Positions 1,793-28,644 of a stretch of 32,819 bases of DNA are shown piece after piece. The notes under the pieces were generated by a model. That model searched no databases. It saw only the letters and a list, made by a program, of their open reading frames with translations, and was not told the DNA's origin. The position numbers and the translations under genes are program-made. The DNA comes from Candidatus Fibrimonadaceae bacterium. Its GTDB lineage: Bacteria; Fibrobacterota; Fibrobacteria; Fibrobacterales; Fibrobacteraceae. The stretch covers positions 1 through 32,819 of the forward strand of contig JAITFT010000063.1 in NCBI GenBank assembly GCA_031281155.1, given 5' to 3'. How positions within the stretch are numbered: the first letter of the stretch is position 1; every line of letters starts with the position of its first letter.

Positions 1793-4147
1793 TTAAACAA
1801 CCTCAAACCCCAAACTCTTGTAACTCCTTAACCGTTTCCTATACATCCCCAACAACACCGTCACTTTTTCATCCACATAATCATAAACCCGTATTTCCTT
1901 TTTTCCGTGAAACGCACGGTTAAGGCGACCGGTATATTGAGTAAGCGTTCCCTTCCATGAAAAAGGAAAAACTATGAATAGAGTGTCAAGGCTTGGCAAA
2001 TCAAAACCTTCCCCAAGGTACTTTCCCGTAGAAAGGATTATCTTGTTTTCGTGGGCAGCACTTTGAATTTCCTCCATAATCACTTTTAACTGCTTCTTCC
2101 CAAGCCCGCCTTTCAGCACAAAGAGAGGTGACACATGATCTTTCAGAGCGTTGTTCAATATATCCAGATGCTCTATCCGATCGCTCAAAACAAGGCATTT
2201 CCGACCTTCGCGATGCAAGTCGAGAATATCTTGAACTATCAGCTTATTTCGTTCTTCATTTTGATAAAGACTATGGAATATATCTTGGATAGCAGTTTGC
2301 TCGGTGCTAAAATCGGTGATGCGAGGGAATACTTTTTGTTCAAATAGCGATGCGGTACGGGCACTCGAATAACGGACATCTCCAAGATTCATCAAGACGA
2401 TAGGATGCTGGCCGTCTTTGCGTATAATGGTCGCAGAAAGGCCCAAGCGATAATGTGCTGGGCATTTTCTGATTATCCGCTCAAATGAAACGGCTGAAAT
2501 GTGATGGCATTCGTCAACAATGATTTGGCCATATTCAGACATCCAATTTTCTACGACATTTTTTTTGACAATGCTTTGCATAACAACAATATCAATGATG
2601 CCATTGCGCTTTTTCTTCGTTCCGCTATAATAACCAATATCCTTTTTAGGAATTCCCAGAAATTGATGTATTCGCTCTACCCATTGATCTGCAAGCATTT
2701 TGCGGTGAACTAAAATAATGGTATTCACTTTTCGCTCCGCTATCATTCGGATGGCAACAACGGTCTTACCAAAGGCTGTGGAAGCGGAAAGTATTCCTGT
2801 TTGATTTGCTTTTAGTTTTTGAAAAGCTTCTTCCTGGTCATCTCTAAGTTCACCCTGAAAACTAACTTCAATAGGCTTCCCGTGATTTTGCTTGTCTTGT
2901 AATTCTGGTTTAATTTTGTAATGTTCAAGGATTGCCATAAGGCTATCTAAACATCCAACAGGCAGGCCGATATATTCAGGAAAGAATTCATAGCAGTGAA
3001 GAATGTGCGGTTTGTTCCAAGTTGGAAGTCGCATATTTTGAGCTTGGTAAAATTCTGGATTTGCAAAAGAAGCAAGTCTAAGTATACGGTTACGCAATAC
3101 AGGCGGAAGGCCGGTGTGGTTAATGTAGAGCTGGTCAGCAAGCACTACTTCTACTTTTTGCGGAATCGGCTCAGAAATAACAGGCAAAATGGTAGTTTTT
3201 CTCTGCCATGGCTTGGCTTCATCCTCCATCTCTACAGGATTGTAAACTACGGGCAAAAGTTCGTTTTGCTGAATGGCATTTTGAATGATAGAGTCTAATT
3301 TATTTTCATCCATATACTTTACGGAAGCGAGAAATGCCCACTGATCATCGTAGGGGACCATATCATCATTTAAAAACAGAGTGTGTCCCTTCTCTCTTGC
3401 CGCCTTTTGCAGAGGAAGAGCAATAAGATTGCCAAAGCCGCCTTTAGGCATTGTATCTTGATTTGGAAAAAAACGATCAAATGAATCAAGTCCAATTTCC
3501 GGCCTTCTATCCAATGTGCGTGTCATCAGAAATGCGCCGAGCTTTCGTGCTTTTATTGTCGAGACTGGGTATTCAAAAAAAATCCATACATGAGCACCGT
3601 TTCCAGAACGTGAACGTTCCAAAATGGCAGGTATTTCTTCGAGCTTGCAGGTATTCACGAACGCCTTGGTATCTTCTCGCCACGTATCTTTGTCAAAATC
3701 TACCGCAAGAAAATAACAAGTTTCATTTTGCAGCATTGGGTAAACTCCCATGACAATAGAACCGGTAAGATGGTTTTTAACCACTTCGTCCGTTAGCTGT
3801 ACAAATGAGCGTTTGGAGCAACTGCCGCAGTTTATTTTTGGTTTTTCGCAGATTTCTCGAACCCATTCGTTTCGACATGCAGGCTGGTAACCGGATTTCC
3901 CTGTTTTTTTGCTTTCAAAGCGTTTTGCGTAAACATCTTCTCTGCCTCTGAACAGAGAGCGAAACAGGGTGATTTTCGCTTCAGAGGAGGAATTGTTGGT
4001 TGTTCCAGATACTGAAGCTTCGGAAATAGTCTGCTTGGTTAGAGCGATTTGCTCTTCTTCAAATTGACGTTTTTTAGCTGCTAATAATTGCTCTAACTCC
4101 GCAATTTCTTTTTGGAGATTCAATAAGGAGGCTTCTGTTACAGGCAT
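1793..4147 (-). CDS. TOTE-type archaeo-eukaryotic primase fused to an SF2 helicase
   Basis: A 784-aa fusion. Residues 1-40 are a charged coiled coil. Cys91, Cys100, Cys107 and Cys110 form a zinc-binding cluster. The AEP primase core covers about 115-270, with the metal-binding DFD (Asp150, Asp152) in FLAVDFDK and the SGNGAHVW motif (Ser181-His186). A linker follows, then a superfamily-2 helicase from about 430: Walker A STAFGKT (Lys461), DECH box (545-548), SAT (571-573) and motif VI QYTGRLNR (737-744). This is the layout of primase-helicases annotated as TOTE conflict-system proteins, implicated in defence or mobile-element conflict. No nuclease domain or neighbouring partner is visible, so it may act alone or be a leftover of a larger operon. 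The start has no clear ribosome-binding site, but a TACATT box lies about 15 nt upstream. All key residues are intact. Confidence 0.85.
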   Translation of the reverse strand: MPVTEASLLNLQKEIAELEQLLAAKKRQFEEEQIALTKQTISEASVSGTTNNSSSEAKITLFRSLFRGREDVYAKRFESKKTGKSGYQPACRNEWVREICEKPKINCGSCSKRSFVQLTDEVVKNHLTGSIVMGVYPMLQNETCYFLAVDFDKDTWREDTKAFVNTCKLEEIPAILERSRSGNGAHVWIFFEYPVSTIKARKLGAFLMTRTLDRRPEIGLDSFDRFFPNQDTMPKGGFGNLIALPLQKAAREKGHTLFLNDDMVPYDDQWAFLASVKYMDENKLDSIIQNAIQQNELLPVVYNPVEMEDEAKPWQRKTTILPVISEPIPQKVEVVLADQLYINHTGLPPVLRNRILRLASFANPEFYQAQNMRLPTWNKPHILHCYEFFPEYIGLPVGCLDSLMAILEHYKIKPELQDKQNHGKPIEVSFQGELRDDQEEAFQKLKANQTGILSASTAFGKTVVAIRMIAERKVNTIILVHRKMLADQWVERIHQFLGIPKKDIGYYSGTKKKRNGIIDIVVMQSIVKKNVVENWMSEYGQIIVDECHHISAVSFERIIRKCPAHYRLGLSATIIRKDGQHPIVLMNLGDVRYSSARTASLFEQKVFPRITDFSTEQTAIQDIFHSLYQNEERNKLIVQDILDLHREGRKCLVLSDRIEHLDILNNALKDHVSPLFVLKGGLGKKQLKVIMEEIQSAAHENKIILSTGKYLGEGFDLPSLDTLFIVFPFSWKGTLTQYTGRLNRAFHGKKEIRVYDYVDEKVTVLLGMYRKRLRSYKSLGFEVV

Positions 4148-4270: not shown

Positions 4271-7200
4271 CTACCTCACTGGCACCTGCAAAATTTTCTT
4301 TTCACTACCGAATGACGTTTTCACAATGTACACTCCTTTCGGCAAATGCCCAAGCGATACTGTATAAACGCCACCGCTGAAGTTTTGCTGCCAAATTAAA
4401 TCTCCTTTCAAATTGAATATTTCAACTACAGCGTTACTGGTTACCTGCAAATTTATACCGTTGTGGATTTGGGTGGCTTGGTTGGAAGTAGCAATTTGCG
4501 GGAAACGTATTGGGGTGCTACCGTCGCTTGAACTACTGCTTGGAGTTATACCACTACTACTGGATGGCGTGTCCGTACTGGAAGAAGACGAGAGTGATGA
4601 CCAACCACTTGTAACGATAATGTCTTCTGGTGGCGCATTATCTGCAATCGCGCCGCCGCTTGGGGTTAAGCAGGCAACATTGGCTATCATCAAATTTTTG
4701 CTTGCTCCGTTGTTTACATTATCGTCAAAAGCCCAAGACATATTGGTTACCTTTGTTAAATCGACAGGCACTGCATTTATATCTCCGGTTGCGCCTCCGC
4801 ACCCTGCGCCTGGCCAGCTACGTGCTAAGTTTAGCGTGGTCAAATCCACGGTTCTCTTAACCCAAGTGCTTTGAGCGGGAGTTATTGGCAAGCCCCATTT
4901 ATTATCGTCTGCTAAAGTCGGGTTAACGCAAATGTCTTTTTGGAATTCCACTAGGAACCAATGCGGGTCCCCTTTGTAATAGTAGGAGATTTCTTTGCAG
5001 TCGGCAATATTTGGATTTCCAGCTGTTTTGTTTCCAATGTATATTCCTGCTCCGCTATATTTATCCGGTGTTGCTAGTGTTATATTCCAAAGTTTTGCTA
5101 CGCCTTCTGAGAAGCCAAGAAAGCCATCGCTATCCTCATATTTTGGGTTGCTAGCTGTTGCATCATTGTACACGTAAACGCCAACATTTCCACCGTAAGC
5201 GGTAGGAACATTTTCAGCATCTTTGCCGTTGTATGCGAAGATGTGGTAGCTTGGAACCTTTATTGAAGGTTTGGGTAAATTGAGCAGATATGGGTAACCG
5301 TTGTTTATTGAGCTTTCAATATCCCAAATTGTATTGAAATTCCAACCTACAAAGTTGGATTGCTGCTTCATCTGTGCGGTGTTTCTACCCCAAATGCCTT
5401 CTTTGCCGCCAACACAAGAGCTTTGCTTGCTTGTTAACGAGTCATAATAACTGTTGGTTATCGTACCAGGATTGGTAACTAGCCATTCAACCGCTTTACC
5501 AATCTGCTTGCCAGCCATAGCACCTTTCTTGGCAGCCTCTAGGTCGAAAGTCTTACTAAAAACAATTAAAAAGCCTGCTATCTGTCCAAATTCTTCGAAA
5601 GGAACCGGGATATCGCTGTTGCTTCCCACAAGTCCACCAGAATAAGACCAAATAGATGTTGAATTCTTTACTTCGCCAATTGAATAACTATTGAATATTT
5701 CGCCTTTTCCATTGATTCCTGCAAGTCCACCGATATAAGGGGCTACTATCCCATTTCCCATAACTACGCTAGCAGAATAACTATTATTTATTGTGCCTGC
5801 ATTGTTTCCAACTAATCCACCGAGTTGATTTTCTCCCGTAACCATTCCTTCAGAATAACAACCACTTATCATACCTTGATTTAATCCTGCTATTCCGCCA
5901 ACCCAAAGTCCAGCAGTACCAGCGACAATGTTATTATTCCCTGTTACTGTACCTGTGTAATAACAATTAATTATAGTGTCTAAGTTAAATCCAACAAATC
6001 CACCAACCCCTATTTTTCCTGATATTACTCCTTCGGAATAGCTGTCTTTTATAGTGCCTGCATTAGTTCCTATCAATCCGCCGACAATAGAATCTCCAAC
6101 TACTTTACTAACAGAATAGCTACTATTTATCTCGCCATAATAATAGTCATTCACCATACCACCAACATTAAGCCCTGCAAGTCCACCAACAAAACTTTTT
6201 CCCGTTATTGCCCCATCGGAATAGCTGCTTCTTATAATGCCAGCATTAGCTCCTGTTAACCCACCAATTCGGTAATTTCCCGTTATTGTACCAGAGAAAT
6301 AGCTGTGGCTTATAGTGCCTATGCTTGTAAGTTGAATCCCATCCTCTTCTTCATCTAAAAATTGATTAATACCGACAAGTCCACCAACAAGAGTATCTCC
6401 TGCTACTGCGCTAGTGGAATGGCTATTACTTATCGTAGCGCCAGTGTTAATACCAACAAGTCCACCAATCATTATACTTCCTGTCACGTCGCCTTCGGAA
6501 TAACTGTCTCTTATAGTACCAAAGACTAAATCGTCTATCGTGCCTCCAAGATTGGCTCCAATAAGCCCACCAACAGCTGATTCTCCCACTACCTTTCCAG
6601 TAAAGTGACAGGTACTTGTCGTACCGCCATTGTTATATCCTATAAGCCCACCAACCATTCTATTTCCTGTCACATCGCTAATGGAATTGCTATTGCTTAT
6701 ATCACTATGGGTATTCCATCCCACTAGCCCGCCAACAAGGACATTTCCAAATACCTCACCAGCGGAATTGCTACCGCTTATATTCCCATCACCACGATTC
6801 CATCCCACCAGTCCGCCAATTCGTTCTGTCCCTATCACTACTCCTGTGGAATAGCTGTTGCTTATCTCACCTTCGTTCAATCCTACTAGTCCACCAACAC
6901 TGTGATGACCTTTCACAATACTTGTGGAATAGGTATCCTTTATCGCGCTTGTACTAGTGTTAAATCCAACCAACCCACCAACATTCAATGAACCTCCAGC
7001 AGCACCTGCTTCAACAATGCTTCCCATTACCATACTAACGGAATAGCTATCATTTATTTCACCTTCGTTATACCCTACAAGCCCACCAATATTTCTCGCA
7101 GGTGTTCCCTGTACTGTTATCGTACCAGCGGAATGACTGCCCCTTACAATGCCATAGTTGCTCCCTATAAGTCCACCGAGTTCTTGAACGCCAGCTACTT

Positions 7201-7825
7201 CGCCGTTGGAATAACAATCAATTATAGTACCGTAGTTATCTGCTACAAGCATACCACCGTTTGCAAATACTTCGATGTAAGAAGCAATTATACCGAGATT
7301 TTTTATCGTTCCATTAGAGCCTAAATATCCGAACAAGCCTAAACTACCAGTGCCATCATAATTATCTCCACCTATATAAACGCCACTCACTACAAAATCA
7401 TTTCCATCAAAAGTCCCTTGGAATCCTAATCCTTCCTTAGAACTACTATAGCCATCACACAAAGGATGCTCAGGAAGAATATCACAAATAGTAGTAGTAG
7501 TACCATAGCTGCCTTCTATCGGACTCCACTTATTGGCAGGAGGGGTTGTTGCCCAGCTTTTCCAATTTATTGTATCGTTGAGCATAATATTTGCACCAAG
7601 CTTAACGATTTTGCCAGCAAAATCATTTCCGTCGTTCACTAATTGCTTAAATCCAGCAAATTGTTGTGCTGTAGTTATGGTAAATTCGCTTGCCAAAGGA
7701 TTATTGGTGTACCAAACCGTATTAGCCGTGCCATTCCAAACGGTTTGCGCAAAAGCCGTTTGAACTCCCACACTTCCAATAAACAGGAAAAACAGGACTT
7801 GCAGAATTTTAGTGGATTTTTTCAT
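4271..7825 (-). CDS. Secreted GLUG-repeat surface protein with T9SS-type C-terminal domain
   Basis: A 1184-aa secreted protein. Residues 1-26 are a signal peptide (cleavage after AFA). An N-terminal domain precedes about 19 GLUG-type repeats (core 'VGGLVGxNxG...SYS', about 165-770), which should form a long right-handed beta-solenoid. A separate domain (about 845-1060, around WFLVEFQKD and VTNMSWAFDD) resembles the carbohydrate-binding-like modules of fibrobacterial surface proteins. A Ser-rich linker and a 75-residue tail of the T9SS sorting-domain type follow (VEIFNLKGDLIWQ ... GVYIVKTSFGSEKKIL). Likely role: cell-surface adhesion or polysaccharide contact. Its ATG overlaps the stop of the upstream M6-like gene (ATGA), with AGGAG before it, so the two are translationally coupled. 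Confidence 0.88.
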   Translation of the reverse strand: MKKSTKILQVLFFLFIGSVGVQTAFAQTVWNGTANTVWYTNNPLASEFTITTAQQFAGFKQLVNDGNDFAGKIVKLGANIMLNDTINWKSWATTPPANKWSPIEGSYGTTTTICDILPEHPLCDGYSSSKEGLGFQGTFDGNDFVVSGVYIGGDNYDGTGSLGLFGYLGSNGTIKNLGIIASYIEVFANGGMLVADNYGTIIDCYSNGEVAGVQELGGLIGSNYGIVRGSHSAGTITVQGTPARNIGGLVGYNEGEINDSYSVSMVMGSIVEAGAAGGSLNVGGLVGFNTSTSAIKDTYSTSIVKGHHSVGGLVGLNEGEISNSYSTGVVIGTERIGGLVGWNRGDGNISGSNSAGEVFGNVLVGGLVGWNTHSDISNSNSISDVTGNRMVGGLIGYNNGGTTSTCHFTGKVVGESAVGGLIGANLGGTIDDLVFGTIRDSYSEGDVTGSIMIGGLVGINTGATISNSHSTSAVAGDTLVGGLVGINQFLDEEEDGIQLTSIGTISHSYFSGTITGNYRIGGLTGANAGIIRSSYSDGAITGKSFVGGLAGLNVGGMVNDYYYGEINSSYSVSKVVGDSIVGGLIGTNAGTIKDSYSEGVISGKIGVGGFVGFNLDTIINCYYTGTVTGNNNIVAGTAGLWVGGIAGLNQGMISGCYSEGMVTGENQLGGLVGNNAGTINNSYSASVVMGNGIVAPYIGGLAGINGKGEIFNSYSIGEVKNSTSIWSYSGGLVGSNSDIPVPFEEFGQIAGFLIVFSKTFDLEAAKKGAMAGKQIGKAVEWLVTNPGTITNSYYDSLTSKQSSCVGGKEGIWGRNTAQMKQQSNFVGWNFNTIWDIESSINNGYPYLLNLPKPSIKVPSYHIFAYNGKDAENVPTAYGGNVGVYVYNDATASNPKYEDSDGFLGFSEGVAKLWNITLATPDKYSGAGIYIGNKTAGNPNIADCKEISYYYKGDPHWFLVEFQKDICVNPTLADDNKWGLPITPAQSTWVKRTVDLTTLNLARSWPGAGCGGATGDINAVPVDLTKVTNMSWAFDDNVNNGASKNLMIANVACLTPSGGAIADNAPPEDIIVTSGWSSLSSSSSTDTPSSSSGITPSSSSSDGSTPIRFPQIATSNQATQIHNGINLQVTSNAVVEIFNLKGDLIWQQNFSGGVYTVSLGHLPKGVYIVKTSFGSEKKILQVPVR

Positions 7826-8673: not shown

Positions 8674-9303
8674 TTAGAACGTATAATTTACGCCAATTTG
8701 AACTTGCATCAAAGTTGGTGTTTCACCGCCTATTCCCATATATTCCCCAAAACCATACGATGAAAAGCTACCCAAACCACGTAGGTCTATAGAAAAATGT
8801 TCATTTATGCGAAACCCTAATTCACAAGCAAAACCAACATCGCTCGCAGAACGGTGATTTTTAAAAGTTTCATCTTGACTATCTTGCAAATCCAATACGA
8901 CCCCAAAATACGGGCCAATTCCCAGATATATCAAATTTTCTTCGCGGTACCTAAATCTAAAAAGTAATGGAACATCTATCCCGGTTTCTGTTACTGTCAA
9001 ACCATTAAAATCTTTAATCGGTTCTCTATGTTGTATGGTTATTTCCGGCACAAAATAGACACCCCAAACGGGAATAAGGGCATAGGCCCCCAACCCGTAA
9101 GAATTGCCGCCTTCTACCGTTTCCTTAGATACCGTGGTTCCCCACATAGTAGTAGTTTGTATTTCATCTGGAAAAATCCCTGCGGCCCCTATATTCGCCC
9201 TCGCTCCAAAGCGAATATCTTCTCCCCATGCAGTTGCATTGCCAAAGAAGAATGTTAATACCATGGCGAAAAACGCCGACGAAAGAAAATGATTAGTTTT
9301 CAT
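8674..9303 (-). CDS. Outer-membrane beta-barrel protein
   Basis: A 209-aa protein with a signal peptide (cleavage near residue 25, NATA/WG) and alternating amphipathic strands typical of the small 'outer membrane protein beta-barrel' family. Signature strands are 'RFGARANIGAAGIFP', 'IYLGIGPYFGVVLD' and the final 'QIGVNYTF'. The terminal Phe is the usual BAM-recognition residue. The length fits an eight-stranded barrel. It overlaps the upstream regulator-like ORF by 11 nt and precedes the lipoprotein gene, suggesting a co-expressed envelope set. No substrate can be inferred. Confidence 0.8.
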   Translation of the reverse strand: MKTNHFLSSAFFAMVLTFFFGNATAWGEDIRFGARANIGAAGIFPDEIQTTTMWGTTVSKETVEGGNSYGLGAYALIPVWGVYFVPEITIQHREPIKDFNGLTVTETGIDVPLLFRFRYREENLIYLGIGPYFGVVLDLQDSQDETFKNHRSASDVGFACELGFRINEHFSIDLRGLGSFSSYGFGEYMGIGGETPTLMQVQIGVNYTF

Positions 9304-9517
9304 ACTGAATACTCCTATTTTGAAGGTTGGTTAAATTATTTGCTAGACCCAGCTCTACAAGCTCGCCATTTACATTTTCAAGCGAATTAACTATGATAGA
9401 ACTCGCAACACTTTTCTTGTTTGCCGGAATGCCACGGGCATTTAAACGAGCTACTTCTTCAATTATAAGCCGCTCTGCTCTCTCCGAAACGGCTATTGTA
9501 CCGATTTTACTTTTCAT
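9293..9517 (-). CDS. Small regulator-like protein, possibly ribbon-helix-helix
   Basis: A 74-aa protein (MKSKIGTIAVSERAERLI...). A basic N-terminal strand is followed by two helices around 'AERLIIEEVARLNARG' and 'NKKSVASSIIVNSLENV', a pattern like ribbon-helix-helix or antitoxin-type DNA-binding proteins. ATG 9517 is chosen because the open frame upstream codes a hydrophobic, low-complexity stretch over the promoter. A minus-strand TATATTTG box lies at 9554-9547, about 30 nt upstream. It leads the envelope operon and may regulate it. Family assignment is tentative. Confidence 0.55.
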   Translation of the reverse strand: MKSKIGTIAVSERAERLIIEEVARLNARGIPANKKSVASSIIVNSLENVNGELVELGLANNLTNLQNRSIQYEN

Positions 9518-9590
9518 TGTAATTCTATTTTTTACACTCACGCTAACAAATATAGAAATAAAAATGTAAAAAATTGGGAAGGAATACAAT

Positions 9591-9624
9591 TTCATTCATT
9601 TTTTTTCATTTATATTCATTTTTT
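9591..9624. promoter_or_regulatory. Phased TTCATT repeats between divergent regulators
   Basis: TTCATT occurs at 9591, 9595, 9605 and 9615. The last three are exactly 10 bp apart, each beside a T-tract. This places identical half-sites on one DNA face between the divergent genes starting at 9517 (minus) and 9640 (plus). It looks like an operator or curved-DNA element; the binding protein is unknown, with the HTH protein at 9640 the nearest candidate. Confidence 0.45.
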
Positions 9625-9639
9625 GCCGATAAAAAGAAT

Positions 9640-9969
9640 ATGAAAACGCTGGATATTGCAAAATTTGCCCATAGAGTGGGTTTTAAATACAGGGAGCTTG
9701 CTGAGGAATTGGGAACCTCAACGAGCTTGATAGGTCAAGTTGCCAGAGGAAAATCAAAGTTTTCCTACGAAAATGTGGTGAAATTGATAGAATTAGGCAT
9801 AACGGCAGAGGAGCTATTAGGAGAGGAATTAGGAAAGGCATTCAAAAAACGCTGCTACGAAGAATATGTCAAAGAAAATAGAGATTGCACAACGCCAATA
9901 GACGTTGCTGATGCAAAGAGCATGGTTGTAGCAGGTTTGCAGAAGATTTTGGACGAGGTTAAGGGGTAA
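9640..9969 (+). CDS. Small XRE-like HTH regulator
   Basis: A 109-aa protein. Residues 1-60 carry a helix-turn-helix of the XRE/Cro type ('YRELAEELGTSTSLIGQVARG') followed by 'ENVVKLIELGITAEELLGEELGKAFKK'. The same 'IT.EELxGxExxKxFK' signature occurs in the XRE protein at 23095-23724, so both belong to one regulator family. The C-terminal half is charged and helical. ATG 9640 is chosen over the upstream in-frame start because the extension codes a hydrophobic stretch over the phased repeats. It may regulate itself and the divergent envelope operon. Confidence 0.72.
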   Translation: MKTLDIAKFAHRVGFKYRELAEELGTSTSLIGQVARGKSKFSYENVVKLIELGITAEELLGEELGKAFKKRCYEEYVKENRDCTTPIDVADAKSMVVAGLQKILDEVKG

Positions 9970-10060: not shown

Positions 10061-10249
10061 ATGCCTGAGCTGACTACCGCTGATTTAGTTACTCATCAAA
10101 AGAAAATCGGCGGGCTTAGCCATGCCTCGGATTCAACTATTCAGCGATTGAGTTATTTGTTGGAGCATGGCAAAGAAAGTGAAGGTTTTGAGATCAATAT
10201 GCGTTGGAAAGTAATTGTTAACGAGCAAATTGAGGTGGATGATTTATGA
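10061..10249 (+). CDS. 62-aa partner of the AbiEii toxin, putative antitoxin
   Basis: A 62-aa acidic protein (MPELTTADLVTHQKKIGGLS...). ATG 10061 is preceded by TGGAG; an upstream GTG at 10019 lies in the hairpin and has no ribosome-binding site. Its stop overlaps the AbiEii ATG by 4 nt (ATGA), the coupling expected of a toxin-antitoxin pair. It lacks the winged-helix and C-terminal domain of AbiEi, so it is either a different, much smaller antitoxin or the remnant of a larger one. Possible short helices are 'DSTIQRLSYLLEHGKE'. Function is inferred from position only. Confidence 0.6.
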   Translation: MPELTTADLVTHQKKIGGLSHASDSTIQRLSYLLEHGKESEGFEINMRWKVIVNEQIEVDDL

Positions 10250-11025
10250 TACCGCAACCTGCGATAACGCAATGGTCGGAATTTTTCCCTTGGAAAAATA
10301 ACGCACAGATAGAACAGGATTTGGTGATTTGCCGTGCGTTGGTCGCTATTTTTAGTGATCCATATTTGTCTTCGCATTTAGCATTCAGAGGCGGAACGGC
10401 GTTGCATAAATTGTACTTGCATCCGCAGCCTCGCTATTCTGAAGACATTGACTTGGTGCAAATTAATGCGGAGCCGATTGCAGAAACAATTGACAGGATT
10501 AGAGCCGTTTTGTCTTTTCTTGGCAGGCCTAAGATAAAGCAAAAAATGCATAACAATACCATGATTTTTCGTTTTGATTCTGAAATTCCGCCGATAATTC
10601 CTATTCGATTGAAAGTGGAAATAAATTGTCGTGAGCATTTTAACGTTCTTGGTTTAACGCAATGCGATTTCAGCGTAAGTAATCAGTGGTTTTCGGGAAA
10701 CTGTGCGATAACTACATATCATTTGGAAGAGTTGCTGGACACAAAGCTTCGTGCGTTGTATCAGCGTCGTAAGGGGCGAGATTTGTTTGATTTGTATAAG
10801 GCTGTTTCAACGCAAAATGTTAGCACGGAAAAGATAGTTCAGTGCTATCGTAAATATATGAGTTTTGCAGTTGATAAGCCGCCGACAGCAAAAGAATATT
10901 TGCAAAATATGGAGTTAAAGATGCAAGACGATGAATTTTTGGGAGATACGCTTATGTTGCTGAGGCCTGATGAATTGTACAATCAGGTTGAGGCTTGGGG
11001 GAGTTGTGAGGAACATTGTGGATAG
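10246..11025 (+). CDS. AbiEii/AbiGii-family nucleotidyltransferase toxin
   Basis: A 259-aa nucleotidyltransferase of the AbiEii (type IV toxin / MenT-like) family. Members transfer nucleotides to targets such as tRNA acceptor ends and stop growth during phage infection. Visible motifs: FRGGTALHKLYL (Gly49-Gly50), the metal-binding SEDIDL (Asp67, Asp69), a third-acid strand RLKVEIN (Glu125 region), Lys167 in DTKLRAL and the conserved RKGRDLFDLYKA block (Arg178, Asp179, Asp182). Length is normal and all motifs are intact, so the enzyme should be active. It is coupled to the 62-aa ORF before it rather than to a normal AbiEi gene. Orphan AbiEi-like genes occur at 1610 and 21431. Confidence 0.88.
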   Translation: MIPQPAITQWSEFFPWKNNAQIEQDLVICRALVAIFSDPYLSSHLAFRGGTALHKLYLHPQPRYSEDIDLVQINAEPIAETIDRIRAVLSFLGRPKIKQKMHNNTMIFRFDSEIPPIIPIRLKVEINCREHFNVLGLTQCDFSVSNQWFSGNCAITTYHLEELLDTKLRALYQRRKGRDLFDLYKAVSTQNVSTEKIVQCYRKYMSFAVDKPPTAKEYLQNMELKMQDDEFLGDTLMLLRPDELYNQVEAWGSCEEHCG

Positions 11026-20516: not shown

Positions 20517-20609
20517 CTTCAGGCACGCCGTTCCCGCCCGGGAATGCTCACAAAACCTAATGCTGACCCGTGAGCGGCAGCCCCATTTGGTTGCGCAAAC
20601 AGAAGCCGG
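20517..20609 (+). repeat. Dispersed non-coding repeat, copy 2
   Basis: The left block (20517-20550) matches copy 1. The right block (GTTGCGCAAACAGA at 20590-20603, then GCCGG) matches copy 3, with the same spacing of about 40 nt from the left block. Between them GCTGACC..GTGA and GCC..ATTT are also shared with copy 3. Most complete copy. Confidence 0.6.
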
Positions 20610-20629
20610 ATACGTCCCTGAAAATTGCC

Positions 20630-21430: not shown

Positions 21431-22204
21431 TTATGTCGTGGTATGATCAATAGCAGCTCCTTTCCGTATTATGGACATTAAATCACGAGGAACATACAAA
21501 GCCCACGTTTTATTAAGCGTATATGACTTGTCCCGTACATTATATTGAAGATACTGCTTGTTCTTTGCGAACTTGGTCTGACAAAATGCAAAAAAAACAT
21601 CCGGCAGTTTCAGCGCATCCTTGAAATGTTCCAATATATATCCGGTCTTTTGAAATAGTATCGCTTTGTTATAACAATTCAGGTATTCAGTCAGTTTTGA
21701 GTAATCAAGGAATGGGATTATCTCTATACAACGCAACAACTCTTCGAGTCCTCCAAAGTTATCAAAGTCATTTATGCCATCTATTACTGTGCGTTCCAAA
21801 TCGGTAATACGAACGCCATTAGGCTTAGATTCAACTCCATTTTCAAACGGAGATGGCATACGGCGGTATGTTAGCCCGTCATGCTCAAACTCACGGAAGC
21901 GAGACTTTGATGCCGCATAAACTTCGTAATAAACTTGATTGGCTAAGCCGTAATATTCAAACGCAGAATGGCAAGTAACATAAGCGCCAGGTGCGGCATG
22001 GGATGCAATGACGTAACGGTTTGGTATCGGCTGTTTTGTTTCAAAGCTCATCGCCACAAACAGATTGCGGCGAACCGCTCCTATAAGCCCTCTTTTTTTA
22101 TATGATTCTATTATGAAATGCGCAGATTCTTGGTTGCCAGTCACAGCAACCGCATCATCCATTGAAAAACAGCCCAAATCAACAAACTGTTCATAGTATT
22201 TCAT
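21431..22204 (-). CDS. Orphan AbiEi-like antitoxin / transcriptional regulator
   Basis: A 257-aa AbiEi-type protein. The N-terminal winged helix ('FVDLGCFSMDDAVAVTG...IESYKKRGLIGAVRRNLFVAM') is followed by the family body 'NRYVIASHAAPGAYVTCHSAFEYYGLANQ' and 'GVRITDLERTVIDGINDFDNFGGLEELL'. These proteins repress their own operon and neutralise the AbiEii nucleotidyltransferase, normally encoded directly downstream. Here the downstream gene is a GNAT enzyme, with no AbiEii beside it; the only AbiEii gene (10246) is 11 kb away on the other strand with a different partner. ATG 22204 is chosen with GGTGG five bases upstream. It may be a free regulator or an anti-toxin 'addiction breaker'. Confidence 0.8.
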   Translation of the reverse strand: MKYYEQFVDLGCFSMDDAVAVTGNQESAHFIIESYKKRGLIGAVRRNLFVAMSFETKQPIPNRYVIASHAAPGAYVTCHSAFEYYGLANQVYYEVYAASKSRFREFEHDGLTYRRMPSPFENGVESKPNGVRITDLERTVIDGINDFDNFGGLEELLRCIEIIPFLDYSKLTEYLNCYNKAILFQKTGYILEHFKDALKLPDVFFAFCQTKFAKNKQYLQYNVRDKSYTLNKTWALYVPRDLMSIIRKGAAIDHTTT

Positions 22205-22742
22205 AGCAACCACCAACCTTTCGGCATCGAATCCGTTTTAACAACTACGCAATAAGGTAGAAAATTCTATCTCTTTGCGAATGCTTTCAAAAAGGATGCG
22301 CTGTTTTCGCTCGGAAATGCTCATCCCCTTCTTGTGCTGGTCCGAGTGACTGCCCTATTTAGTTGCGCAAACAGATAGCGGCGTAAGTAGCTTGTTAAGG
22401 AACGACTACTTAAATTGCCTCGCATAATGCAAAAAATATGCCAACTGTAAAAAAATAAATACATCTTCATACAAAAACACATTTTTTCCTTTGAGAAAAG
22501 CTCATGACGATAAAACTGAACAAAAGCGGAAATTCTTGGATGTAATTGCGATCGCATCTGCTTCATAGAGGGAGGGGGGAGTGTGACGAAAAAAATATTG
22601 TCAGTAACTGTAAGCAAGAAAACAAGCTTCATAGGAGGCTTGTTACAAACAGGCCTTTAATTGCGGCTTGAAGAATAGGGCTGGAATCAATTTATCTTCT
22701 CTTTAAAAAAGTATATTATCAAGACAAAACGGAGGATAGCTT
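22205..22742. other. Gap holding the third repeat copy and the promoter of the HTH orphan
   Basis: I find no credible gene here. The gap contains repeat copy 3 (22303-22381), a Thr/Arg-rich shadow ORF on the minus strand without a ribosome-binding site, and a TATATT box at 22712-22717 followed by ACGGAGG before ATG 22743. Confidence 0.45.
22303..22381 (+). repeat. Dispersed non-coding repeat, copy 3
   Basis: GTTTTCGCTCGGAAATGCTCA, about 39 variable bases, then GTTGCGCAAACAGA (22362-22375) and GCGG. This is collinear with copy 2. No long open frame is shared between the copies, so the element is non-coding. Confidence 0.55.
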
Positions 22743-23168
22743 ATGAATAAAATGAACCAGCCAGCCAGTCGGGACGATATACGAGAATTCCTCGAAGCAG
22801 TAAGCAAAGCAGATATGTACATTAAAGAAAGCTGCTACCGTTCTCTTATAGGCTTGAGCCGTACTCATTTTTATTATTTGAAAAAGCGTGGGAAATTTGA
22901 CAATGGCTATAGCCCGAACAGCCATGGTCGGAAAAAGTTCATACATCGCTTTTACAATATGCACCTAGGCAAAATTGTGCTCCCCGGATTGAACTACACG
23001 GAGCCAGTAACGCCAATGCGGAAAGTTAGAATCAGCAACACAAAAAAAACAAGGACAGAGCCAGTGAAGTCGCTGAAGAAAACGCAGAAAAAAATTATGG
23101 TAAATAATCCTTTATCTCATCTGGAAACTCGTCTCCAAAAGGGTCATGATTTTGCGGAGCTACTCTAA
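22743..23168 (+). CDS. Small HTH protein, orphan paralogue of the ATPase-operon HTH protein
   Basis: A 141-aa protein. Residues 4-88 align with the protein at 23922: shared 'MNxP..R', 'E....D.YI.E', 'SR..FY.LKK.GK...G..P', 'RK...H..Y....G.I' and 'EP..P'. The 'IGLSRTHFYYLKKRGKF' segment is a likely helix-turn-helix and the tail (100-120) is Lys-rich. Unlike its paralogue it has no ATPase gene behind it. Its last 24 codons (23095-23168) run antisense through the end of the convergent XRE gene, so this C-terminus may be an accidental read-through after loss of the original downstream gene. The ribosome-binding site is ACGGAGG. No named family recognised. Confidence 0.65.
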   Translation: MNKMNQPASRDDIREFLEAVSKADMYIKESCYRSLIGLSRTHFYYLKKRGKFDNGYSPNSHGRKKFIHRFYNMHLGKIVLPGLNYTEPVTPMRKVRISNTKKTRTEPVKSLKKTQKKIMVNNPLSHLETRLQKGHDFAELL

Positions 23169-23724
23169 AGTTAATCATGGTTCTTATTTGCGAAGCTTTT
23201 GAATGCTTTTTGGCTTTCATTTGCTCCTCCAAATCCTGTATCTGGGAATCCTGTACAAGCCGCCTGGACTGCTCATGCAATTTTATAGCCTCATTGTATT
23301 CCTGCATCTTCGCTTCTTTTTTAATTTCATCATCAGCCTGCTCTATTTCTTTATGCAATTTGCGTATTTTATCCCCTGCTTTAAGCATTTTTGCGTACTC
23401 ATTTGCGTACTCAGTGCCACTTTTTATTATCACGTCTTTCAGCTCTTCAATCATTGCTTCTAAAATAATTTTCTGCGAATTATACCATTCCTTCTTTATG
23501 TTTTTAAAATGTTTTTTTTCATATTCAACTCCAAACAATTCCTCTACAGTTATATCCATTTCCAATAGTTTTTTTGCTATTTGGAACGAAGGAAAGCCCT
23601 TGCCAGCCTCCCAAGTAGATACATTTCCGGGATTTATGCCCAAAACATCCGCTAATTCAGTTTGATTAACCCGCTTTTTATCCCTGAATTTTTTTATTCC
23701 ATCCTTAGTTTCCATAGCTTCCAT
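23095..23724 (-). CDS. XRE-family regulator with long coiled coil
   Basis: A 209-aa protein. The XRE HTH covers about 8-60 ('KRVNQTELADVLGINPGNVSTWEAGKG'), then 'DITVEELFGVEYEKKHFKN', then a helical coiled coil over about 80-175 rich in Glu/Lys, and an acidic tail (PFGDEFPDEIKDYLP). A TTGACA-17-TATATT promoter lies directly before the gene. The -10 is only six bases from ATG 23724, so the mRNA is probably leaderless. GGTAAA-type half-sites overlap this promoter and the facing one, pointing to autoregulation and control of the divergent HTH-ATPase operon. It overlaps the convergent small HTH gene by 74 nt at the 3' end. The coiled coil suggests a sensing or oligomerisation role. Confidence 0.82.
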   Translation of the reverse strand: MEAMETKDGIKKFRDKKRVNQTELADVLGINPGNVSTWEAGKGFPSFQIAKKLLEMDITVEELFGVEYEKKHFKNIKKEWYNSQKIILEAMIEELKDVIIKSGTEYANEYAKMLKAGDKIRKLHKEIEQADDEIKKEAKMQEYNEAIKLHEQSRRLVQDSQIQDLEEQMKAKKHSKASQIRTMINFRVAPQNHDPFGDEFPDEIKDYLP

Positions 23725-23730
23725 ATTTCA

Positions 23731-23759
23731 AATATAGGTAAAAATTACAAAAATGTCAA
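23731..23759 (-). promoter_or_regulatory. Promoter of the XRE gene
   Basis: On the minus strand TTGACA (23759-23754), a 17-bp spacer, then TATATT (23736-23731). The predicted transcription start falls at or beside ATG 23724, so the message would have no leader. Confidence 0.75.
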
Positions 23760-23797
23760 CAAAATTTACCTTTTTTCAATTTTTCTTGATTTTACCC
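23737..23797. promoter_or_regulatory. Candidate XRE operator half-sites
   Basis: GGTAAAAATT at 23737-23746 (inside the XRE promoter spacer) and AAATTTACC at 23762-23770 form an inverted pair. A third site, TTTTACCC (23790-23797), touches the -35 of the divergent promoter. The arrangement would let one protein repress both promoters. Confidence 0.5.
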
Positions 23798-23826
23798 TTG
23801 CATTTTATCAAGTAATTTTCTATATT
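23798..23826 (+). promoter_or_regulatory. Promoter of the HTH-ATPase operon
   Basis: TTGCAT (23798-23803), a 17-bp spacer, then TATATT (23821-23826). The predicted start is close to 23833, giving a leader of about 90 nt before the HTH gene. Confidence 0.7.
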
Positions 23827-23833
23827 AATGAAT

Positions 23834-23932
23834 ATGAATGATTTTTATATAAATTTTAACGATTGTATTTGTGTGGTTCCGCAAAATACGCTAGCGTCAG
23901 AAGTGAAACGGAGGGCAAAAAATGCTGGATAA
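23834..23932 (+). CDS. Possible 32-aa leader peptide
   Basis: An ATG at the predicted transcription start opens a 32-codon frame (MNDFYINFNDCICVVPQNTL...) that ends at TAA 23930-23932, just past the ATG of the HTH gene at 23922. If translated from a leaderless message it would couple to the downstream start. No ribosome-binding site is present, so this is speculative. Confidence 0.3.
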   Translation: MNDFYINFNDCICVVPQNTLASEVKRRAKNAG

Positions 23933-24260
23933 TCCTATGAATGAGCCTATAACTCGCCGAGAATTAAAAATGCTTGCCGAAATCCTGAGAAACTCAAACT
24001 CAGACACTTATATTTGCGAAGTCGAATTCATGCGTCAAGCAAAAATTAGTCGTGGTACCTTCTATAACCTTAAAAAGCTGGGGAAGCTAAATTCCGGGAC
24101 GCATCCGGCTACGCTTGCTTGCCGGAAAAGGCGTTTGCACAAAAGGTATGATTTTCGTAGCGGTCGCATATTGGATTGCATAGAACCTGCGGTGCCGAAG
24201 CCAGACCGCAAAAAAGAGAAAAAGAAAGCAGCCACTCAAAAAAAGGAGACAGGCTTATGA
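23922..24260 (+). CDS. Small HTH protein heading the ATPase operon
   Basis: A 112-aa protein of an unnamed family, paralogous to the one at 22743. The central 'AKISRGTFYNLKKLGKLNSG' is a likely helix-turn-helix. It is followed by a basic motif 'RKRRLHKRYDFRSGRIL' and a Lys-rich tail (KKEKKKAATQKKE). Both ends suggest nucleic-acid binding. GGAGGG lies six bases before ATG 23922. The stop overlaps the ATPase start (ATGA at 24257-24260), so the proteins are made together. It could be the targeting subunit that brings the ATPase to DNA or RNA; that role is inferred from layout only. Confidence 0.7.
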   Translation: MLDNPMNEPITRRELKMLAEILRNSNSDTYICEVEFMRQAKISRGTFYNLKKLGKLNSGTHPATLACRKRRLHKRYDFRSGRILDCIEPAVPKPDRKKEKKKAATQKKETGL

Positions 24261-25921
24261 TAAGCAAATCACTACCTGTATCAGTAAATCAATTCAATGG
24301 CAAATTAGTCGCAAACATCATGGCTAGGGTGCCGATCATAGGAATTGATTACAAAAACACAGACAAATGCACCTTGCATACAATGCTGACAGCTTTGTTC
24401 AACCATCTTAAAATGGAATTATGGCTTTACAGCCTTGACAAAGACGGACGGCCTTGCATAATGCGGTTCCCTTGGAAAAGCAAGCCGAAAAAAACAGACT
24501 TGTATTCATTCGTTCCAAAAGAGGAACAAACAGAAGAAGGTTTGCATGTGGATAAAATAATACTGGATTATGTTTTGCCTTCTATGGGAACAAATCAAAT
24601 ATTCGCTTTCTTTGATGAGGATTTTGACTGGTCCGACATCCAAATACAATTGGCTGAAAAAGCACACGGGCTTGGGCAAACAGTGATTGTTTTGACAGAT
24701 AATTTGGACGAGGAAGATATAACACCAAGGCTTAAAAAGTTTGGCTTTTTTACAAATCATTGGGTTTCAAACGAAGAGGAATTGGCGCAATATTTGGGAT
24801 TGTGCTTGAAAGAAAAAAAGTGGCCTGGCATAAAGCTTGAACTGGGCGACAAGGAAATTCGCAGAATTGCCTCTTTATTGACCGGTTATGGTTTTCTGGA
24901 AGCAGAAAAGCGATTCAATGTATTTGTCATGCTGCATTATCTGAAAAATATGCTTGGAAAAAAGCCTTGCATTATTGACAAAACGGCAATTGATGCTTTC
25001 GAGAAAGAGATGAAAACTGAACGCCAAAAATTGGAAAGCTCGCAAGGCTTGGAACAGATTTCCTTGGAGCATTTCAATGAGAATTCCGTAGCAGGCTTGG
25101 AAAACCTGAAAAGCTGGCTTAAAACGGCAAAAGAATTGTCCACACCACAAAAAATCGGCGAAATGCGAATGATGGGCTGGAATCTTCCACGTGGAGTTCT
25201 GCTTATGGGCGTTCCAGGCTGCGGCAAATCTCTTTCCGCAAAGTGCATAGCAGCTTCATTTGAGTGGCCGCTTTACAGGCTGGATTTTGCAACAGTCCAA
25301 AATATGTGGATTGGGGAAAGCGAAAGGCAGCTGAAAGCGGCATTTGATTTTGCGGACACCCGCTCTCCATGCTTGCTGTGGATAGACGAAATAGAAAAAG
25401 GGCTGTCTGTTTCAGACAATGACCCATACACAAGAAAACTGCTGGGTATGTTTTTGACTTATTTGCAAGAGAGCAAGTCGAATGTATTTGTTGTGGCTAC
25501 TTCAAATGATGTTCAGAAGCTGCCTCCCGAATTGCTCCGCAAAGGACGTTTTGACGAGATATTCTTTGTTGATTTGCCAAATGAAGCGGAGCGTAAAGAG
25601 ATTCTAAAAATGTACTTAAAGAAATATTTGAGAACGGATTTATCTGAAAATTTTGCGAAGAAAGCTGTTGTGGCAACAGAAGGTTTTGCTGCTTCTGACA
25701 TAGAAGGGACATTGAGCCAGCTGGGGCGTAAGAAACTTGCTTATGAAAACACGGATATATCCGAAGAAGCTATTTTGAAATTATTCAAGGAAGCAACTTC
25801 CGTTTCAAGAGTGAATCCAGGAAAAATTGAGGCGATTAGAGAATGGGGATTTAAACACGCTGTTGTTGCTAGCAAGAGTGTAATTCACATAAACATTGAC
25901 AAAAAAAGGAGGTCAATATGA
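24257..25921 (+). CDS. Ycf46-like AAA+ ATPase
   Basis: A 554-aa protein. The N-terminal half (1-270) is the divergent alpha/beta domain seen in Ycf46-type ATPases ('IILDYVLPS...QIFAFFDEDFDW...QTVIVLTDNL'). The AAA+ module is at about 278-500: Walker A GVPGCGKS (Lys324), pore-like 'NMWIGESERQ', Walker B LLWIDEIEKG (Asp377, Glu378), sensor 1 Asn417 in VATSND, 'LPPELLRKGRFDEIFFVDLP' with the candidate arginine finger, and a sensor-2 region near 'GFAASDIEG'. All catalytic residues are present. ATG 24257 (AAAGGAG upstream, ATGA overlap) is chosen over an earlier frame opening inside the HTH gene. Ycf46 proteins are poorly understood. Here the ATPase is flanked by two basic proteins, suggesting a nucleic-acid remodelling machine. 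Confidence 0.88.
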   Translation: MISKSLPVSVNQFNGKLVANIMARVPIIGIDYKNTDKCTLHTMLTALFNHLKMELWLYSLDKDGRPCIMRFPWKSKPKKTDLYSFVPKEEQTEEGLHVDKIILDYVLPSMGTNQIFAFFDEDFDWSDIQIQLAEKAHGLGQTVIVLTDNLDEEDITPRLKKFGFFTNHWVSNEEELAQYLGLCLKEKKWPGIKLELGDKEIRRIASLLTGYGFLEAEKRFNVFVMLHYLKNMLGKKPCIIDKTAIDAFEKEMKTERQKLESSQGLEQISLEHFNENSVAGLENLKSWLKTAKELSTPQKIGEMRMMGWNLPRGVLLMGVPGCGKSLSAKCIAASFEWPLYRLDFATVQNMWIGESERQLKAAFDFADTRSPCLLWIDEIEKGLSVSDNDPYTRKLLGMFLTYLQESKSNVFVVATSNDVQKLPPELLRKGRFDEIFFVDLPNEAERKEILKMYLKKYLRTDLSENFAKKAVVATEGFAASDIEGTLSQLGRKKLAYENTDISEEAILKLFKEATSVSRVNPGKIEAIREWGFKHAVVASKSVIHINIDKKRRSI

Positions 25922-26265
25922 AAATCAAACCCAATGAAGATTATGGGCAACAAATGAAAAAAGCGCGCATAAAGTACGCAAAAGAGCAGGAGGCGAAGCG
26001 TAAAAAGGCAGAGGCTAAGAAGCGCAAAGAGGCGATGATGAAGCAACGCAAAAAAATGGCAGCTGCTGCAAAGCGAGAAAAGGCGGCGAGGGAAAAGCGA
26101 GAAAAGGCATCGATAGCAAAACACTTAAAAGCAGAAGCGAAGAGCCGCAAAAAAGTAGTTATGGAGCAATACAAAGAAGTATTGGCGCAGCGCAAAAGAA
26201 AGGCAGCGATGGTGAAACGCAGAAATGCCATGATAAAAGCAAACCGCAAGGATTATGGCGCCTAG
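25918..26265 (+). CDS. Very basic Lys/Ala-rich helical protein
   Basis: A 115-aa protein, mostly Lys, Arg, Ala, Glu and Met, predicted to be one long charged helix ('KRKKAEAKKRKEAMMKQRKK', then 'KREKAAREKREKASIAKHL'). No enzyme motif, signal peptide or membrane segment. AGGAGG precedes ATG 25918, which overlaps the ATPase stop by 4 nt, so it is the third gene of the coupled operon. The composition recalls histone H1-like or polyA/nucleic-acid-condensing proteins; it could also be a substrate or adaptor of the ATPase. Low complexity makes homology unreliable, but the ribosome-binding site and overlap support a real gene. Confidence 0.68.
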   Translation: MKIKPNEDYGQQMKKARIKYAKEQEAKRKKAEAKKRKEAMMKQRKKMAAAAKREKAAREKREKASIAKHLKAEAKSRKKVVMEQYKEVLAQRKRKAAMVKRRNAMIKANRKDYGA

Positions 26266-26438: not shown

Positions 26439-26981
26439 TTATTTCACCGCATCCAACCTTTTTATCAAAGCATATATAGCCGTAGAAGGATTCTTACCAA
26501 CCTCTAAACCCTCAGCTCTTTTAATCGCCTCATCTTTATTCAAAGACAAAACCTCCTTCAACGAAACATTCAATACCCCTTTTTTATAGTCATGCACGTG
26601 CTTTTCAAGCTCTAAAATACACTGGGCACTTGTCAATTCAGCAGTCTGCGCCTGAAAATGAAGCAAATACCAAATCTCAAAACAAGGATTTGACAACAAC
26701 AATTCTGCATTTCTAATCTGTTTCAATTTTTTAACAATTTCTGGTACGTCAGAGTCATAAATCAAAAACGTTTCGTCTTTTTTATGCTTCGTGTGGTTGC
26801 TCTTAAAGTTGCTTATATACCTTTCATTTATATCGCCACCCTTCTTCCTAACTTTAATTTCAATCGGAAGCCTGTATTGGGAACGCAAATAATTTATATA
26901 CGCTTCTTCTGTTTCTCCTTCGCAAAAAATAAAAAAGGTAGGCCTTATTTTCTTGTTCTTTGAAATCCGTTTTGCTTTCAT
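26439..26981 (-). CDS. RloB-family (AbiLii-like) TOPRIM-type protein
   Basis: A 180-aa RloB protein. 'PTFFIFCEGETEEAYINYL' (Glu21, Glu23) and 'TFLIYDSDV' (Asp76, Asp78) give the acid clusters of a TOPRIM-like nuclease fold; 'NPCFEIWYLLHF' is the family's conserved third block. It overlaps the upstream ATPase gene by 4 nt (ATGA). ATPase + RloB is the make-up of the AbiL abortive-infection system and is related in logic to other ATPase + TOPRIM anti-phage pairs. Length and motifs are complete. Predicted role: effector nuclease released or activated by the ATPase on phage sensing. Confidence 0.85.
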   Translation of the reverse strand: MKAKRISKNKKIRPTFFIFCEGETEEAYINYLRSQYRLPIEIKVRKKGGDINERYISNFKSNHTKHKKDETFLIYDSDVPEIVKKLKQIRNAELLLSNPCFEIWYLLHFQAQTAELTSAQCILELEKHVHDYKKGVLNVSLKEVLSLNKDEAIKRAEGLEVGKNPSTAIYALIKRLDAVK

Positions 26982-28156
26982 TTTACTATGCTCCTAAGAT
27001 TTTCCAAGGAGCTATCTATATACGGAATCGCATCAAACCTGCCTTGCAAATACGCTTTCTCCACATTCATGTTGTCTCTGAAATCTTTGTAATCAAACAA
27101 TGAATACAAATCGCTTGAACCATCTTCTTTTTTATTCACAAAATAAATCTGGTCTTTGCGCAATTTATTCAAATTTAGCAAGCTGGTGTTATGGGTAGTG
27201 AAAATGATTTGTGCCGAACTGCTTACGTGAAACAGTTCAACTATATATTCAACAATCTTGCTATGCAAACTCGTTTCAATTTCGTCTATCAATAGAACTT
27301 TATTGTTTTTCACAATGTCTATTACTACCAACATCAAAGAAAAAAGTACTTGCGTTCCCTTGGATTCTTCGGACATCAAATCAAATTGAACATCTTTATT
27401 TGCTTTGTGAAAAGTTTTAAAAAACAATCCCTCTTTCAAGCTTATATCAACAATATCGCTATCTGCCATATTAAGCGCTTTGAGCAAATGTTCTCGATTT
27501 TGATTGTAGAGATTTTCTATTTCTTTATCGTTTAGAGTTGGGTAATCAAGAATGAAAGAATTGCTGAAAAAGCTAAATATCATTTTGGGGATTTCTCTGT
27601 CCAGTTGACTAGCACGTGAGATATAAAGCGTTTTGCGGGAAGTATTTTCTGCTACATCCATAGGCTTGTGTATTGCGGAGGAAAAGCTGTATATTTTATT
27701 TTTCTCTTTTCCATTTTTTTTGTTTCTAGCAAAAATTTTGGCACGCCTTCCGTTTGGATAGTAGTACAACTCTTCCCTAACAATTTCTGTATTTGTGAGC
27801 GAAAAGGAATATTCATATTCTATATCATTTATAATGAATTTTACGAGAAAATAACTTTCTTTTTTATTGTATTCATCAAATTTGAATGGTGAAAAGTCAA
27901 ATACGGTGTTTTCATTGTTTAGGTGAGAGGACAATACCATTGAGCGGCAAAAACGGATTGCTTTTATAATATTGCTTTTACCAGATGCATTAGCTCCGTA
28001 AATAACGGCTGATTTAAGGATTCGTTCATCATTGCATTTAAACGTATTATCAAGCAAATCCAGATTTTTCTTGGAGTTGCTATCACTAGCTCTCATATCC
28101 AAAACAATTTCTTCTTTTATAGAGAAAAAATTGCTCAAGCGTACTTCTAATATCAT
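26978..28156 (-). CDS. RloA/AbiLi-like ABC-type ATPase (AAA_15/AAA_21)
   Basis: A 392-aa SMC/RecF-like ATPase. 'LEVRLSNFFSIKEE' is the usual opening strand. Walker A is YGANASGKSN (Lys60, Ser61). An ABC signature-like 'SEESKGTQ' lies at 262-269, Walker B is VLLIDEIETSLH (Asp291, Glu292) and the switch His is in FTTHNTSLL (His322). Members act as sensors that hold or fire a TOPRIM/HEPN partner; here the partner is RloB, coupled by ATGA. GGAGG lies five bases before ATG 28156, with a good TTGATA-17-TATATT promoter upstream. Both genes are intact, so the pair is likely a functional abortive-infection module. Confidence 0.87.
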   Translation of the reverse strand: MILEVRLSNFFSIKEEIVLDMRASDSNSKKNLDLLDNTFKCNDERILKSAVIYGANASGKSNIIKAIRFCRSMVLSSHLNNENTVFDFSPFKFDEYNKKESYFLVKFIINDIEYEYSFSLTNTEIVREELYYYPNGRRAKIFARNKKNGKEKNKIYSFSSAIHKPMDVAENTSRKTLYISRASQLDREIPKMIFSFFSNSFILDYPTLNDKEIENLYNQNREHLLKALNMADSDIVDISLKEGLFFKTFHKANKDVQFDLMSEESKGTQVLFSLMLVVIDIVKNNKVLLIDEIETSLHSKIVEYIVELFHVSSSAQIIFTTHNTSLLNLNKLRKDQIYFVNKKEDGSSDLYSLFDYKDFRDNMNVEKAYLQGRFDAIPYIDSSLENLRSIVK

Positions 28157-28422: not shown

Positions 28423-28644
28423 GTGCAGCTCTACTTTTCAGTCGGTATTATTTCTAACTTTACTCCTATGGAATATGATCAGTATTTGTCTCGTTTCATG
28501 GGCAAGAATGACCGTTTCGCTCAGCTGGCTTACGCCGAGGAGCAGGGCGAGGCTCGGGGCGAAGCCCGTGGCATTGCAAAAGTGCTTGAATACCTCAAAC
28601 AGGGGCACACGGTTGCCGAAGCAGAACAACTGCTGAAGGCTTAG
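28423..28644 (+). pseudogene. C-terminal remnant of an Rpn/PD-(D/E)XK transposase-like nuclease
   Basis: This frame codes 'TPMEYDQYLSRFMGKNDRFA', then 'QLAYAEEQGEARGEARGIAK' and a short helical end 'YLKQGHTVAEAEQLLKA'. That is the characteristic tail of Rpn-family recombination-promoting nucleases, including the GEARGEARG repeat. The catalytic N-terminal 200 or more residues are missing; upstream sequence (28325 on) is a short frame with a good AGGAGG and GTG start but no nuclease homology. The part from ATG 28468 could still be translated. Interpreted as a gene stump left by a deletion or insertion. Confidence 0.6.

Follow-up and report, generated by a model that had tools for sequence, protein, structure and literature searches.

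A Cdc48-like ATPase in an apparently one-off, prophage-derived operon of a Candidatus Fibrimonadaceae bacterium

What brings a Cdc48-like ATPase together with a small helix-turn-helix (HTH) protein, a lysine-rich basic protein and a divergent XRE regulator in a Candidatus Fibrimonadaceae bacterium? The question is raised by positions 23095-26265 of a 32,819-nucleotide stretch (GenBank assembly GCA_031281155.1, contig JAITFT010000063.1), here termed the window; it is one (C51) of the 219 contigs in a draft assembly, so that the ends of any element reaching beyond it are out of reach. An earlier reading made from the letters alone (the sequence-only reading) had proposed the genes as a candidate undescribed system. 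Since the combination turned up nowhere else searched, the operon looks like a one-off, prophage-derived assembly and not a conserved new defence system. The explanation favored, at a probability of about one half, is that a temperate phage or satellite has decayed here, leaving behind its regulatory region and an early operon that had captured a diverged unfoldase. Its components are known in kind (a prophage repressor, a phage winged-helix protein, a Cdc48-like ATPase), and their assembly is so far unique. The features concerned are:

22743-23168, plus strand: HTHb, small winged-helix protein, paralogue of HTHa (34% identity, E 3e-14); ribosome-binding site CGGAGG
23095-23724, minus strand: XRE coiled-coil repressor, divergent from the operon (HTH_3 2.8e-7); probable start 23715
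23736-23771, no strand: candidate operator, inverted half-sites AGGTAAA-N22-TTTACCT around the XRE promoter; one match, an optimistic 0.01 expected
23922-24260, plus strand: HTHa, 112-aa winged-helix protein with a basic tail (AlphaFold2 model; family in prophages of the genus)
24257-25921, plus strand: Cdc48-like type II AAA ATPase, 554 aa (Pfam AAA, Foldseek, motifs and phylogeny)
25918-26265, plus strand: Lys/Ala/Arg-rich protein of apparent octad repeats, 115 aa, net charge +30 (ATGA overlap; ribosome-binding site AAAGGAGG; 8-residue periodicity)

The gene set, its orientations and its two ATGA overlaps, at 24257-24260 (HTHa/ATPase) and 25918-25921 (ATPase/basic protein), were as the sequence-only reading had described them, and the coordinates and the divergent XRE gene were confirmed; the HTHb paralogue had been overlooked. 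Strong Shine-Dalgarno sites precede all three operon start codons (CGGAGGGC, AAAGGAGACA, AAAAGGAGG), and together with the two overlaps they make it likely that HTHa, the ATPase and the basic protein are encoded on one transcript. The novelty claimed for the combination also held, in that nothing in Pfam, NCBIfam, PADLOC or PHROGs matched the set as such exactly and no paper describing it was found in a literature search.

Judged by its sequence, the XRE protein is of the prophage-repressor type. Over 202 aa it shares 44% identity with the divergent XRE protein of a prophage in the same genus (G011:C20; L103:9255-9971) that carries an integrase, a large terminase and a major head protein, and RstR, a family of phage repressors, is its best NCBIfam match, though below cut-off; no XRE relatives were found in viral contigs. 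The homologue begins at METKDGIK, and for this reason translation probably starts at the second ATG, 23715. The gene has a near-consensus promoter, TTGACA-17-TATATT, on the minus strand at 23759-23731, which is bracketed by the AGGTAAA/TTTACCT inverted pair; this pair has one match in the window against 0.01 expected by chance, a figure that is optimistic because the pattern was picked after inspection of the sequence.

The HTH proteins point in the same direction. The core of the HTHa model has pLDDT above 90, with three helices followed by short strands, and a search with this fold returned nothing below E 1, winged-helix regulators being frequent among the matches without reaching significance. 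HTHb, encoded just upstream of the operon by a gene that overlaps the XRE gene tail-to-tail at its 3' end, belongs to the same family. Among the 126 genomes of the class this family is seen in no other genus (7 genomes have it), and its copies often stand in tandem. Four of its loci hold phage replication or head genes: in one (L105) the HTH gene directly follows a replication-initiator gene and precedes ParB, TerS, TerL, DnaB, portal and protease genes, and the other three have ParB and a replication initiator (L099), a portal (L104) or DnaB (L100). The remaining copies are solitary or near an integrase (L095, L098, L106). Both the XRE and the HTH proteins thus have kin in prophages of the genus, as a phage-type repressor and early gene would. 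Viral contigs and phage records gave no significant match to the family, and the phage link of the HTH proteins consequently rests on same-genus prophages. As separate observations, one prophage-like region encodes three small HTH domains fused in a single protein (L100:10049-11002), and a 226-aa protein at another locus (L096), considered as a replication protein, had no PHROG match and only E 0.009 to a protein of L104 and was not used.

The third gene of interest, the ATPase, retains Walker A (GVPGCGKS), Walker B (LLWIDE), sensor N417 and Arg fingers R428/R431. These catalytic residues are invariant across 47 aligned sequences, which bears out the intact Walker and sensor residues reported earlier. 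Pfam detects only one classic AAA domain (3.7e-28). An AlphaFold model built on the 47-sequence alignment (mean pLDDT 81) was aligned by Foldseek with the D1-D2 regions of Cdc48, NVL and Rix7 over ~550 columns (best E 1.3e-20, best TM ~0.65), and by this comparison the protein has two tandem AAA-fold domains. The first is degenerate, without Walker motifs; the second keeps the full catalytic set and has an aromatic residue in its pore loop, W351, which is Y in most relatives. Among solved structures, the D2 rings of Cdc48/p97 and NVL come closest in sequence. With a first ring lacking Walker motifs and a catalytic second ring bearing an aromatic pore loop, and judging from the established properties of the Cdc48/NVL class, the ATPase would by plan be a protein unfoldase and not a helicase or nucleic-acid translocase. 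Direct action on DNA or RNA, as had been suggested, is weakened by this Cdc48-type sequence and fold, while action on a nucleoprotein remains a tenable part of that suggestion. Two stacked AAA domains, the second with Walker A and B, Arg fingers and aromatic pore loop, are common to Cdc48/p97, NVL/Rix7 and Drg1/Afg2, from which the window ATPase differs in its Walker-less first domain, in having no N-terminal adaptor domain and in lying within a phage-style operon. Cdc48-type unfoldases are a class mainly studied in eukaryotes.

Is the gene set conserved? Relatives of the ATPase were sought in phages, plasmids, viral contigs, genomes and the class, and, counting the window, 106 loci had gene maps that could be used, with flanks of up to 8 kb on each side (some contigs being shorter). 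In the flanks of the 105 other loci there was no HTHa-family HTH, basic-protein-like or full-length XRE relative; weak XRE-domain matches occurred elsewhere in four of them. Among the 12 genomes sampled for the genus, all draft, one (G008) has an ATPase orthologue split between the end of contig C114 (residues 5-63, 61% identity) and the start of C81 (residues 479-541, 79% identity), which we infer to be one gene. It has no HTH gene directly upstream and no basic gene downstream, and an HTH pair lies on the opposite strand ~1 kb past its end. Another genome (G003) has a lone ATPase first domain, 30% identical over 230 residues. An HTH pair is therefore found within ~2 kb of the ATPase in both genus genomes that hold more than the first domain, in differing arrangements. 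These results tell against a conserved four-gene system. The observation named beforehand as refuting it, ATPase homologues alone in housekeeping contexts, was largely borne out: none of the 105 other loci has the HTH or basic partner, with the correction that the homologues lie mostly in a five-gene operon (below) or in phages and not in known housekeeping contexts.

The hydrophobic residues of the basic protein recur every 8 residues, with a score reached in none of 20,000 shuffles and approached by no other period from 2 to 12, and the DNA of its gene has similarities of 0.44 at lag 24 and 0.46 at lag 48, against ~0.3 at most other lags tested. The 8-residue period and the matching 24-bp signal give it, in its sequence, the look of an expanded octad repeat of charge +30; a tandem repeat finder did not report the array. 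The 115-aa extremely basic helix originally described is basic as stated, and the periodicity speaks against a plain helix. That the protein binds DNA or RNA is at most a reasonable guess. No convincing relative was found in the genus, viral contigs, the PDB, PHROGs or the flanks of the ATPase loci.

This orphan state bears on the possibility that the operon is an accidental assembly in a decaying island, in which prophage scraps (the XRE gene and two HTH genes), an ATPase left stranded and an orphan basic reading frame that evolves fast would have no joint function. The partners are indeed unrelated by distribution, the basic reading frame is an orphan of diverged 24-bp repeats, the G003 relative is a lone domain, and the window is rich in dispersed repeats; the two ATGA overlaps, three strong ribosome sites and intact catalytic motifs argue, on the contrary, for selection on an expressed operon, and we regard an accident as rather unlikely.

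Where did the ATPase come from? In 75 of the 106 loci the gene is accompanied by at least one of four unnamed proteins, c1 to c4, and in 52 by the full set. These partners are ~572 aa (c1), ~171 aa (c2), ~162 aa (c3) and ~65 aa (c4) long; c1 has a hydrophobic stretch near its C-terminus, and c4 ends in FPxWDLxPPxxFVxR. The resulting five-gene operon has the order c3-c1-c4-c2-Cdc48-like AAA, though in many Bacillota c3 follows the AAA gene, and occurs in many phyla, satellite phages and plasmids (L109-L188, L022, L023, L090-L092, L094). Examples are L145 (c3 5067-5516, c4 7260-7448, AAA 7986-9536) and L121 (c1 5004-6734, c2 7170-7658, AAA 7677-9248, c3 9288-9779). The partners tested had no Pfam, NCBIfam or convincing PADLOC match, and no paper describing the operon was found in a literature search. 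In trees that were quick and have long branches, the window ATPase groups with 73 operon-type ATPases and not with the phage ones (SH-aLRT 100), and it falls inside the operon-type clade in a reduced tree with the longest branches removed. This nearest clade is mostly 33-44% identical to it; the operon is carried, for instance, by Streptococcus satellite phage Javan368 and a Comamonas antarctica megaplasmid. The Ycf46-like AAA proteins of plasmids, satellites and phages in phrog_8638 are of equal length and domain plan (E 2.3e-75, residues 239-543), but their phage members are only ~24-29% identical over the alignment and have different gene neighbors. In two loci from the family of the window's genome (L004, L108), the gene after that of a more distant AAA relative is shared (~481 aa, cluster c188), which makes another recurrent pair.

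The grouping with operon-type ATPases, and the full-length two-domain plan that the window protein keeps, would also suit a degenerate five-gene operon in which the HTH and basic proteins took over the adaptor jobs of lost partners. However, these two proteins have no similarity to c1-c4, none of which lies beside the window ATPase or, by profile searches, anywhere in the window. Moreover, a c1 profile that worked in four positive genomes found no c1 in any of the 126 genomes of the class, so either the loss of partners is old or the ATPase gene arrived alone. A takeover of this kind is very improbable.

The neighborhood raises the further question of defence against phages. An abortive-infection pair had been reported next to the operon and was confirmed:

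26439-28156, minus strand: RloB/AbiLii and AbiLi pair, convergent to the operon and a separate unit (PADLOC AbiLi 2.3e-85, AbiLii 3.3e-24)

A defence module, in which the winged-helix and basic proteins would sense or bind an invading nucleoprotein, the unfoldase dismantle it and the XRE protein provide autoregulation, would fit these AbiLi/AbiLii neighbors and AbiEi, the occurrence of ATPase relatives in satellites, plasmids and phages, and the divergent arrangement, XRE-controlled divergent operons being common in defence. Known defence systems also use related AAA proteins. Membership in one of them was considered and not upheld, as only domain-level IetA/TRIP13 matches were obtained: the IetA match (8.5e-23) covers the AAA domain only, and the IetA NCBIfam score is 70.5 bits against a cut-off of 510. 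The IetAS defence system and the sgiAT genes of SGI1 combine an AAA protein of SpoVK/Ycf46/Vps4 type with an S8 protease (PMC10954446). Their AAA domain is of the same broad class as that of the window ATPase, but the window operon has no subtilase partner; Pfam, NCBIfam and PADLOC scans gave no peptidase match, hence no S8 subtilase, among adjacent genes. Against a defence module it also counts that the set co-occurs nowhere else, that the genus orthologue is without both operon partners, that the XRE and HTH proteins are better explained as prophage genes, and that there is no recognizable effector such as a nuclease or protease. We consider it doubtful. A defence role of the operon against other phages is possible, and none of the results favors it over a role internal to the phage.

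Other features of the window were noted apart from these arguments. AbiEii (10246-11025, plus strand) and AbiEi (21431-22216, minus strand) lie more than 10 kb apart on opposite strands, where such genes are usually an adjacent pair. A primase-polymerase fused to a helicase (1793-4147, minus strand; PADLOC PrimPol 4.1e-96) is of CRISPR-associated type by PADLOC, and no CRISPR genes were noticed near it. A dispersed repeat of ~95 bp at 20521-20620 and 22344-22375 has many copies in this genome and in a second one (G010), its RNA fold being more stable than those of shuffled sequences (z -2.4). Another dispersed sequence, ~125 bp long (28448-28574), recurs in G010 and elsewhere in the genus, and the small reading frame that contains it (28423-28644) may be a piece of a larger gene. 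No RNA families or tRNAs were found in the window.

The phage or satellite reading is thus favored on the kinship of the XRE protein with that of a prophage, the place of the HTH family beside phage replication and head genes, the HTH pair near the ATPase in both genus genomes with more than its first domain, the Cdc48-type fold, motifs and pore loop, and the grouping of the ATPase with operon-type ATPases whose partners are absent here. Under it, the XRE protein would act as a CI-type repressor that keeps its own promoter, and probably also the divergent operon, silent until repression is lifted, whereupon the winged-helix protein of a phage replication module, the Cdc48-like unfoldase and the lysine-rich repeat protein would be made together. 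The winged-helix protein would bring the unfoldase to DNA, and the ring would pull protein through its center by means of the second AAA domain, the first being structural only, so that a protein-DNA complex is dismantled; the likely target would be a replication or repressor complex of the same element or of a competing phage. The ATPase itself may have been recruited from the five-gene-operon lineage and have diverged strongly after losing its c1-c4 partners. Several points weigh against this account. The branch of the window ATPase is very long (2.0-2.6), leaving its exact place in the tree unsure. The only integrase noticed in the window, at 281-1510, lies 22 kb from the operon and need not belong to it, and no phage structural genes were noticed in the window. 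The basic protein is without a phage relative. The AGGTAAA/TTTACCT half-sites are not conserved in the prophage relative of the XRE locus, and no operator is apparent ahead of the operon itself. The gene structure, the motifs, the fold and prophage kinships and the absence of the old partners are observed; co-regulation, a complex, its substrate and the biological role are inferred from them.

In summary, the locus has led from the proposal of an undescribed system to what looks like an element remnant in which a Cdc48-type unfoldase has moved into phage-style regulation. A more specific reading, in which the winged-helix protein delivers the Cdc48-like ring to strip repressor or replication proteins of a rival from DNA, is a long shot, and equally so the accompanying idea that the octad-repeat polycation is a DNA-coating or substrate-handling partner; if true, such a targeted unfoldase, encoded by a phage or satellite, would be a weapon between elements, or a lysis-lysogeny switch, of a new kind. 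The locus also draws attention to a large family of Cdc48-like ATPases, as yet unnamed, in bacteria and mobile elements, and the five-gene operon in which many of them lie is a more novel object, and a better target for follow-up, than the single locus.

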